Of a stretch of DNA of 64,000 nt, positions 14,360 to 16,585 are shown piece after piece. The notes under the pieces are model-generated. The model did not search any database. It worked only from the letters and a program-made list of their open reading frames with translations, and was not told the origin of the DNA. Source of the stretch: Archaeoglobaceae archaeon (lineage in GTDB: Archaea > Halobacteriota > Archaeoglobi > Archaeoglobales > Archaeoglobaceae); the NCBI GenBank assembly GCA_027028145.1, contig JALVJV010000011.1, positions 1-64,000 on the forward strand, in the 5' to 3' direction. The stretch's first letter is position 1. Every line of letters begins with the position of its first letter. The position numbers were made by a program, and so were the translations under genes.

Positions 14360-15121
14360 TTACCTTCTCGACACGAACCAGATTAGCCCGAGGAGTATCG
14401 CGATGAACGCGTATCCGAAAGCTACGATGACTTTGCCTGATATGAGGTTTAGGTTGTATAGCAATGCGAGAAACACCTCTATCGCTATGAAAAACTGGAG
14501 CACCGTCAGAAAAACGAACGATTTACTTCCGAAAGCCGGAAATCTCGTTATCATCGGCTCTATATAGCTTAGGAACGTCAGAAGTGGTGTTATGCACATG
14601 GCTATTATCGGAATCACCACGGCACCGATGAATTTATCCGAGTAGCTGTCAGGTTTTCCGGTTACGTCGAAGTGTATCGCAACCATGCTCGGAATTTTAT
14701 CCCATAAGATCAGCGTTAGAATTAGATATAGGAATATCGGAACGATCTGAACAGTCAGATAGAACTTGATGCCTTCGATTCTGAGCGGCTTCGCTACTTG
14801 AACAGGGGTTTTCATATCTTCGATTTCGTATGTCTCCTTGGCAATTTTGTAGCTTAGAAACACGAGAACTGTTAAAGCGATCAGCAGAATCGCAAGAAAG
14901 GCGGAGAGTGGTATATTCAAAGTTAAGCTGATTATCAAAAGGATCAAACCCAAGATCGTAACGCAGATCCCAGCGAACGTGTTCGCCTTTCTCCATGCTT
15001 CCTTTGATAGATACGTATAGCCAAACCTAACTCCAATGTAGGGATTCGGTCTGTTTCTTAAAGCATACGTGAGAACTCCAACGACTATCAGAACAACCGA
15101 AATCATAGGCTCCGGATTCAT
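14360..15121 (-). CDS. SdpI-family membrane protein with DUF1648 domain
   Basis: About 253 residues with six or seven hydrophobic segments. The SdpI signature is near the N-terminus (PYIGVRFGYTYLSKEAWRKA) and the DUF1648 signature IPSMVAIHFDVTGKPDSYSDK lies at about residues 140-160. Bacterial SdpI is an immunity protein and signal transducer that sequesters a repressor at the membrane. I chose the ATG at 15119-15121, one base past the PadR stop codon, because it leaves a neat junction with a GGAGGG site inside the PadR gene. The pairing with a PadR regulator suggests a small membrane-sensing unit. Confidence 0.82.
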   Translation of the reverse strand: MNPEPMISVVLIVVGVLTYALRNRPNPYIGVRFGYTYLSKEAWRKANTFAGICVTILGLILLIISLTLNIPLSAFLAILLIALTVLVFLSYKIAKETYEIEDMKTPVQVAKPLRIEGIKFYLTVQIVPIFLYLILTLILWDKIPSMVAIHFDVTGKPDSYSDKFIGAVVIPIIAMCITPLLTFLSYIEPMITRFPAFGSKSFVFLTVLQFFIAIEVFLALLYNLNLISGKVIVAFGYAFIAILLGLIWFVSRR

Positions 15122-15122
15122 A

Positions 15123-15461
15123 TCACAACCCTCCAACCCTTTCAATTATCTCTTTTAACGTCTCGATTTCGGATTCGATCTCTTTCAAAACAATTTTACC
15201 CGATTCCGTAATCCTGTAGCACTTCCTCGGTCTAACGTCCACGATCCAAAAGCTCTCAACTAAACCGCGCTTTTGCAATCCCTTGAGGATATCGTAAAGC
15301 GTCCCCTCGCTCGGAACGAACTTACCTTCCGTTATCTCCTCTATCCTTTTCCTTATCGCGTATCCGTGCAAACTGCCGGATTCGAGGATCTTCAGGACTA
15401 AGTATGCGTATATCCCGGATCTTATCTCCTTTCTGAACTTCTTCACGACATCGTCCCTCAT
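15123..15461 (-). CDS. PadR-family transcriptional regulator
   Basis: 112 residues forming the PadR winged helix: YLVLKILESGSLHGYAIRKR, then the conserved PSEGTLYDILKGLQKRGLVES, then the wing RPRKCYRITESGK and a C-terminal dimerisation helix. It is the first gene of a two-gene operon with the SdpI-like protein. A perfect 23-bp palindrome lies 13-35 nt upstream of its start, between the start codon and the TATA box, so autorepression is likely. The ribosome-binding site AGGAGG is unusually close to the annotated ATG, so the true start could be a few codons later. Confidence 0.9.
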   Translation of the reverse strand: MRDDVVKKFRKEIRSGIYAYLVLKILESGSLHGYAIRKRIEEITEGKFVPSEGTLYDILKGLQKRGLVESFWIVDVRPRKCYRITESGKIVLKEIESEIETLKEIIERVGGL

Positions 15462-15473
15462 ACCTCCTACTCC

Positions 15474-15496
15474 TATGCCTCGAACTTCGAGGCATA
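15474..15496. promoter_or_regulatory. 23-bp perfect palindrome, probable PadR operator
   Basis: Two arms of 11 nt (left arm TATGCCTCGAA, right arm its exact complement) flank a single central C at 15485. The palindrome lies between the padR start codon (15461) and the TATA element (15499-15507), that is over the expected transcription start. This position fits a repressor operator for the padR-sdpI operon, and it might also affect the rightward sRNA promoter that uses the same TATA region. Confidence 0.75.
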
Positions 15497-15498
15497 TG

Positions 15499-15507
15499 TA
15501 TTTAAAG
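15499..15507. promoter_or_regulatory. TATA element, apparently shared by padR (left) and sRNA 1 (right)
   Basis: TATTTAAAG on the plus strand reads CTTTAAATA on the minus strand, where it is preceded by a BRE-like GCAAA. It lies about 40 nt from the padR start and about 25 nt from the predicted 5' end of the first C/D-box sRNA. Confidence 0.5.
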
Positions 15508-15527
15508 TTTGCGCATCAACGTTGTTT

Positions 15528-15586
15528 GACGATGATGATTGGCGCGGGTTCTGATTGGAGATGATGAACGACTGACGGACTGAGAA
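15528..15586 (+). ncRNA. C/D-box guide sRNA (candidate 1)
   Basis: All four boxes are present in order: C box ATGATGA (15532-15538), a 12-nt guide TTGGCGCGGGTT (15539-15550), D' box CTGA (15551-15554), a 6-nt spacer, C' box ATGATGA (15561-15567), a 12-nt guide ACGACTGACGGA (15568-15579), and D box CTGA (15580-15583). Both guides are 12 nt, the standard archaeal spacing. The RNA would bind L7Ae, Nop5 and fibrillarin and direct 2'-O-methylation. L7Ae is encoded at 25533-25895 here. A TATA element lies 25 nt upstream. I could not assign targets from memory. The RNA ends are estimated. Confidence 0.82.
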
Positions 15587-15591
15587 ATACC

Positions 15592-15599
15592 TTTAAATT
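15592..15599 (+). promoter_or_regulatory. TATA element for sRNA 2
   Basis: TTTAAATT with an upstream GAAATAC BRE-like element, centred about 27 nt before the predicted 5' end of the second C/D sRNA. This suggests the second RNA has its own promoter rather than being processed from a joint transcript. Confidence 0.5.
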
Positions 15600-15620
15600 C
15601 TATTGCGTATACCAACAATC

Positions 15621-15677
15621 GGGAGATGATGAATTCAGCCTTGGCTGAGTCGTGATGAACTCTGGCAGTCTGATCCT
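15621..15677 (+). ncRNA. C/D-box guide sRNA (candidate 2)
   Basis: C box ATGATGA (15626-15632), 12-nt guide ATTCAGCCTTGG (15633-15644), D' box CTGA (15645-15648), 3-nt spacer, C' box GTGATGA (15652-15658), 11-nt guide ACTCTGGCAGT (15659-15669), D box CTGA (15670-15673). Box spacing is canonical. The complement of the D' guide contains CCAAGGCT, which from memory matches a conserved 23S rRNA segment (near E. coli position 450). The complement of the D guide contains CTGCCAGAG, which occurs near the 5' end of archaeal 16S rRNA (CCTGCCAGAGG). By the rule of five the modified bases would be the G in CCAAG and the second C in CTGCC's TGC. These targets are inference. Confidence 0.85.
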
Positions 15678-15724
15678 CACTTATACCGATACCGCTATAT
15701 CGTTTTGGAATCGAATAGGGGTCG

Positions 15725-16585
15725 ATGTTCAGGAGTGCCGAAGATTCCGCAACGGCCGGAGTTTTGGCGTTGTTGTTGGAAGTATCGGGAACGCCGAAAG
15801 CCGGAAACGTGGATAGGGATCACAACTTTCCCGATTTGAGATTCGAACAATTTTTGGCTTCAGCTTCGGCGGTATATCCCGTTTTTTTAAAGGATGCGAG
15901 GGGTGAAGGCTCTATCGGTAAACTCGTGCTCGAATCCGTAGAAAGATCGATGGCTTGGCATAAGGCTAAAAACGTCCATTTCGGATGTTTCATGCTCCTC
16001 ATTCCTTTGATAAGATGCTGGAATTCTGGAGATGTCGGTAGAGCGGTGATAGAAGAGCTGAAGCGGACGAGCGTTGAAGATTCCTTGGCGGTTTTGAAAG
16101 CTTTTAGGCTGAGCAGTGCGAGGGTTATGGATGCTGAAGAGCTAAGCTTAACGGACGATGAAACAGAAAGGGAACTCGTAGAGCGTAACTTAAATCTCTA
16201 CGACTGGCTTAAATACACTCCTAAGGAGAACATAGTTGCCATGGAGTTGCTGAACGGATACGAAATAAGCTTTAAGGGTAGGGACGTTCTACTTGAAACC
16301 TTCGCCGAGCACGAAGACGTAAACCTCGCGATAGTTTACACATACTACTACCTACTTTCCGAGCATCTCGATCCCCTGATCATAGCCAAGCACGGGCTCG
16401 ATGTGGCTGAGGATGTTAGAAACAAAGCCGGCAAAATCTTGAACGAATTTGAAAGCTCTTTGGATGTCGGAATCTTGAGGGAGTTCGACGAGGAGTTGAT
16501 ATCTAAGGGCATAAACCCCGGAAGCATAGCCGATTTGACCGCATCTTCGATCTACTTAGCTTTAAGGGAGGGGTTGAGGTTTTGA
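15725..16585 (+). CDS. CitG-like triphosphoribosyl-dephospho-CoA synthase family protein
   Basis: 286 residues of the CitG family. The nucleotide-binding signature reads GTPKAGNVDRDHNFPDLRFE near residues 22-41 and is followed by SASAVYPVF. A second conserved block, STDSS-like in bacteria, is replaced by KNVHFGCFMLLIPL. In bacteria the enzyme makes the citrate lyase prosthetic group precursor, but archaeal copies occur without citrate lyase and with a DUF447 gene, as here, so a different triphosphoribosyl or nucleotide transfer is likely. Some relatives lie in tetrahydromethanopterin gene clusters of methylotrophs; I recall this only loosely. The stop overlaps the next start by 4 nt (TTGA). 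Confidence 0.82.
   Translation: MFRSAEDSATAGVLALLLEVSGTPKAGNVDRDHNFPDLRFEQFLASASAVYPVFLKDARGEGSIGKLVLESVERSMAWHKAKNVHFGCFMLLIPLIRCWNSGDVGRAVIEELKRTSVEDSLAVLKAFRLSSARVMDAEELSLTDDETERELVERNLNLYDWLKYTPKENIVAMELLNGYEISFKGRDVLLETFAEHEDVNLAIVYTYYYLLSEHLDPLIIAKHGLDVAEDVRNKAGKILNEFESSLDVGILREFDEELISKGINPGSIADLTASSIYLALREGLRF

Follow-up and report, generated by a model that had tools for sequence, protein, structure and literature searches.

The 263-bp intergenic gap at 15462-15724 of the window (the whole stretch of DNA analysed, 64 kb) very probably carries two archaeal C/D-box methylation-guide sRNA genes, here called sRNA-A and sRNA-B, arranged head-to-tail and each probably preceded by a TATA promoter of its own. 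From the sequence data, we estimate the probability of this reading at about 0.95. The gap belongs to a draft genome of 1.52 Mb in 24 contigs; both genes lie on the + strand, only about 35 nt apart. A reading made from the letters alone (hereafter the sequence-only reading) had already proposed two tandem, separately promoted guide RNAs in a gap of about 260 bp, a size with which our measurement agrees. The features are as follows.

15123-15461, - strand: upstream neighbour, PadR-type regulator gene
15499-15506, + strand: TATA-like element of sRNA-A, TATTTAAA, readable toward the divergent PadR gene as well
15528-15586, + strand: sRNA-A, predicted C/D-box guide sRNA gene (exact box layout; orthologs in 8 genomes)
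15532-15538, + strand: box C of A, ATGATGA (from the box layout, as for all boxes below)
15539-15550, + strand: D' guide of A, 12 nt, TTGGCGCGGGTT (9 WC pairs to 16S)
15551-15554, + strand: box D' of A, CTGA, followed by a 6-nt spacer
15561-15567, + strand: box C' of A, ATGATGA
15568-15579, + strand: D guide of A, 12 nt, ACGACTGACGGA (8 WC pairs to 16S)
15580-15583, + strand: box D of A, CTGA
15592-15599, + strand: TATA-like element of sRNA-B, TTTAAATT
15621-15677, + strand: sRNA-B, predicted C/D-box guide sRNA gene (RF00095 match; orthologs; stem covariation in the family)
15622-15624 with 15674-15676, + strand: terminal stem of B (covariation in the family)
15626-15632, + strand: box C of B, ATGATGA
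15633-15644, + strand: D' guide of B, 12 nt, ATTCAGCCTTGG (10 WC pairs to 16S; common to other archaea)
15645-15648, + strand: box D' of B, CTGA, followed by a 3-nt spacer
15652-15658, + strand: box C' of B, GTGATGA
15659-15669, + strand: D guide of B, 11 nt, ACTCTGGCAGT (9 WC pairs to 16S; tentative target)
15670-15673, + strand: box D of B, CTGA
15725-16585, + strand: downstream neighbour, CitG-family gene

Box layout, family assignment and conservation

Archaeal C/D guide sRNAs are recognized by boxes C (RUGAUGA), D' (CUGA), C' and D (CUGA) in this order, with guides of 9-14 nt. Exactly this order was found in sRNA-A, as ATGATGA-12-CTGA-6-ATGATGA-12-CTGA at 15532-15583, and in sRNA-B, as ATGATGA-12-CTGA-3-GTGATGA-11-CTGA at 15626-15673. 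The tandem layouts described by the sequence-only reading, with four ordered boxes, guides of 11-12 nt and short D'-C' spacers, were therefore present in every detail. No further strict or loose C/D layout was detected on either strand of the 64-kb window, and none arose in 40 first-order Markov resamplings of it, in agreement with the earlier opinion that a chance origin is very unlikely.

Comparison with Rfam assigned sRNA-B to RF00095 (snoPyro_CD), which it matched over 15622-15676 with 46.7 bits for a gathering threshold of 45 bits. sRNA-A is not a member of this family (22.3 bits) and stayed below every Rfam threshold. No individual Rfam sR family was reached at threshold by either gene; below threshold, numerous archaeal sR families matched both genes, most of the matches falling on the same two spans. 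A k-turn terminal stem of 3 bp plus a G-U was found in sRNA-B, that of sRNA-A being short or absent. The B-family stem covaries strongly across archaea: 86 of 93 combinations at its first three pairs were standard, for a mean of 54 and a maximum of 69 in 5000 shuffles. A fibrillarin gene, coding for a partner protein of such RNAs, was also identified in the genome (2.7e-71).

DNA and profile searches recovered clear orthologs of A and of B in the same eight of 57 Archaeoglobales genomes, four belonging to the same genus (our own included) and two to each of two other genera. Scores were below E = 1e-13 and boxes were nearly invariant across the three genera. Within the genus, A and B are adjacent and their neighbours vary. 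The PadR gene lies upstream of the pair in the present genome (G000) and in G001; it is not beside the pair in G004, where a KaiC-like ATPase takes its place, or in G002, where three ORFs, two of them radical-SAM-like pieces, separate the pair from citG. In the two other genera, A and B occupy unlinked loci, which argues that each is a gene of its own and that the tandem is a genus-level arrangement. A functional link between the pair and the CitG-family gene was considered and rejected, since other genera keep the sRNAs elsewhere and G002 has intervening genes.

Two side observations emerged from these searches. In G002, a radical-SAM-like ORF (L100:2843-3562, + strand) runs with its 3' end into the sRNA-B ortholog, which lies on the other strand (L100:3521-3576, - strand). 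In our own genome, six weaker profile matches (G000:C23:83266-83315, G000:C21:152168-152220, G000:C21:163917-163966, G000:C21:192596-192632, G000:C13:55325-55362 and G000:C5:96450-96487) probably correspond to further C/D sRNAs with other guides.

That box-like words came together by accident in an unremarkable promoter region between genes, an objection that might be raised because the gap doubles as promoter region for two divergent genes, can practically be dismissed in view of the empty shuffles, the covarying B-family stem, the orthologs at unlinked loci and a conservation reaching far beyond the family. The guide-RNA reading is instead supported by the Rfam match, the orthologs, the stem covariation, the fibrillarin gene and the coherent 16S targets described below. 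From the box layout, orthology, B-family stem covariation, complementarity, promoter-like elements and fibrillarin gene, all of them observed, we infer transcription, RNP assembly and methylation. In each transcript, boxes C and D would form a k-turn and boxes C' and D' an internal k-loop; as in the archaeal C/D RNPs that have been tested (PMC4644070, PMC7994747), the RNA would bind L7Ae, Nop5 and fibrillarin. Fibrillarin would then be positioned at the 16S nucleotide that pairs with the guide five positions before box D or D'.

Promoter elements and the divergent PadR gene

The TATA element announced by the sequence-only reading upstream of each gene was recovered as a TATA-like element starting 29 nt before the 5' end that it had proposed. 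Over 16 loci, such elements peak between -40 and -25 from box C, which is the top of a 700-bp profile; at individual loci they can be weak, as for B in G004 and for A in G025. Another possible explanation is that A and B lack separate promoters and are released, through trimming by RNP protection, from a shared dicistronic precursor or longer read-through transcripts. The spacing of about 35 nt and the weak element before B in G004 would suit such a precursor, as would a published survey in which a TATA-like motif was seen for only some 20% of C/D sRNA genes in archaea, and in which gene clusters and precursor processing were reported (PMC7994747). However, each gene here is preceded by an in-register TATA-like element, and orthologs at unlinked loci retain theirs, so that a common precursor appears unlikely, albeit a serious contender, and each sRNA probably has its own TATA promoter. 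The earlier claim of separate promotion thus holds as regards the in-register elements and the orthologs standing alone behind such elements; it is weakened for B by the G004 locus and for A by an element that faces the divergent PadR gene equally.

Between this element and the PadR start codon lies a perfect 23-bp palindrome, TATGCCTCGAACTTCGAGGCATA (15474-15496), with no other exact copy in the genome. Its counterpart in G001 differs by paired changes, palindromy being kept. It is a candidate PadR operator. As the A+T element at 15499-15506 reads as a TATA box both ways, the palindrome may control a promoter region common to sRNA-A and the PadR gene in G000 and G001. On the - strand (14360-15461), the PadR-type regulator is followed by a gene for an SdpI/DUF1648 membrane protein, the two probably forming one operon.

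Predicted targets in 16S rRNA

Complementarity to 16S rRNA with a WC pair at +5 was found for both guides of sRNA-A (9 and 8 WC pairs) and for the D' guide of sRNA-B (10 WC pairs). For A, the D' guide matches ACCCGCGCC and has own C1086, which aligns with E. coli 1114, at +5; the D guide matches CCGTCAGT and has own U1037, which aligns with E. coli 1065, at +5. Taken alone, the 8 pairs of the D guide are no better than chance here, as 13% of shuffles equal them in 16S; up to 10 WC pairs were counted in orthologs. The two sites are 49 nt apart, and the pair is kept in 8/8 genomes despite changed guides. Shuffled guide pairs did as well in 0/300, 1/300 and 0/300 trials in three genomes. By its predicted pairing, sRNA-A is a canonical double guide for these two sites and would guide methylation of 16S U1037 and C1086.

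The D' guide of sRNA-B matches CAAGGCTGAA and would direct methylation of own G880 (E. coli G902, in helix 27), the nucleotide at +5; it forms 10 WC pairs with 16S in every genome tested. A pattern search of 257 billion bases retrieved this guide in C/D context from 32 genome records, all archaeal and distributed among Thermococcaceae, Thermoplasmata, Bathyarchaeota, Vulcanisaeta, Micrarchaeota and Archaeoglobaceae; a literature text search for it returned unrelated papers only. The D guide beside it varies by lineage, and the presence of a common D' guide in distant archaea may reflect shared descent or convergence. In Thermoplasmata sRNAs of this type (records L132 and L155), the D guide matches 16S at E. 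coli C1402, a nucleotide that is ribose-methylated in bacteria by the protein RsmI. One Thermoplasmata genome displayed matching changes in the D guide and its 16S target, direct evidence that guides of the B family track rRNA.

The target of the D guide of sRNA-B in the present genus is more tentative. Its best 16S match is CCTGCCAGA at the 5' end (own 16-24, in helix 1), with 9 WC pairs and +5 at own C19. Anchoring on the shared TTGATC places this nucleotide at about E. coli C22 and was preferred to the MAFFT placement (E. coli 26). Shuffled guides did as well in about 2% of cases in 16S and about 6% in 16S+23S, a same-genus 23S standing in for our own, as a family search found no 23S gene in the assembly. 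The guide is identical in the four genomes of the genus and different outside it; support for the 5'-end target is weak and the target is not kept beyond the genus. Because of these shuffle frequencies and of the lack of conservation outside the genus, pairing with helix 1 can only be proposed tentatively.

The odds are about even that this guide either recognizes a different 16S site, own 1143 (E. coli ~1161) or own 620, or lacks any rRNA target, in which case sRNA-B would effectively be a single guide for helix 27. The two other sites are nearly as stable as the 5'-end site (-13.8 and -12.8 versus -15.4 kcal/mol, duplex energies being stacking sums), the guide drifts between genera, and orphan guides are common in archaea (PMC4644070; PMC7994747). 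In favour of helix 1, the 5'-end site offers the longest uninterrupted WC run (9), in agreement with the published 9-pair criterion (PMC4644070), and the guide is invariant in the four genomes of the genus. Candidate tRNA targets were rejected: on the sense strand, even the best matches did not surpass those in 16S, and the longest ones fell on antisense strands.

Comparison with known guide RNAs

In the established 16S structure, the predicted 5' site of sRNA-B falls on the 3' strand of helix 1, next to the central pseudoknot (helix 2). E. coli 899-908 makes up the 3' portion of helix 27 and precedes the second pseudoknot strand by a short distance. Should both contacts be made at once, sRNA-B of this genus could act as a bridging guide that joins the two sides of the central-pseudoknot region during assembly, as an archaeal functional counterpart of eukaryotic U3 snoRNA, a role that we regard as improbable. 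The predicted contacts (E. coli 19-27 and 899-908) touch the pseudoknot strands only at their edge.

U3 is a C/D-class snoRNA of eukaryotes that base-pairs with the 5' end of the small-subunit RNA and potentially also close to the central pseudoknot on its 3' side (PMC4340053); pre-rRNA cleavage depends on it, and it is grouped with the snoRNPs that have no known modification function (PMC8339473, PMC4340053). According to a 2021 review (PMC8339473), archaea are not known to have either U3 or any snoRNP that serves processing or folding independently of modification. In contrast to U3, defined by pairing with the pseudoknot strands and a processing role, sRNA-B is short, with canonical guides, ordinary box geometry and methylatable +5 pairs, and its D' guide would contact helix 27, several nt away from the pseudoknot strand. 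The likeness between the two is functional and speculative, not a demonstrated homology.

Both sRNAs are real, well supported and ordinary in kind, the bridging possibility of B being the sole unusual part. They add two well-supported C/D sRNA families for Archaeoglobaceae, and one helix-27 guide common to very different archaea, with a differing partner guide, provides a concrete case in which guide turnover can be studied.

With known archaeal C/D guide sRNAs (RF00095, sR families; Dennis et al. 2015, PMC4644070), A and B share box order, guides of 11-12 nt, short D'-C' spacers, rRNA targets following the +5 rule and, for B, the k-turn terminal stem. sRNA-A resembles the typical archaeal double guide, with targets within 100 nt. 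Unlike known representatives, both have lineage-specific guides, and a long stretch of sequence separates the two best targets of B. Dennis et al. proposed in 2015 (PMC4644070) that some double guides with distant targets are folding chaperones, and if its D target holds, sRNA-B would be such a case. The 'chaperone' sRNAs of their Table 3 (for example N. equitans sR17 and sR15) address sequence-distant, structurally close 16S sites, but they pair elsewhere and none links helix 27 with helix 1 at the 16S 5' end, the second site of B being tentative. A bridge between helix 1 and helix 27 would make sRNA-B a simple archaeal system for testing whether C/D RNPs assist in central-pseudoknot folding.
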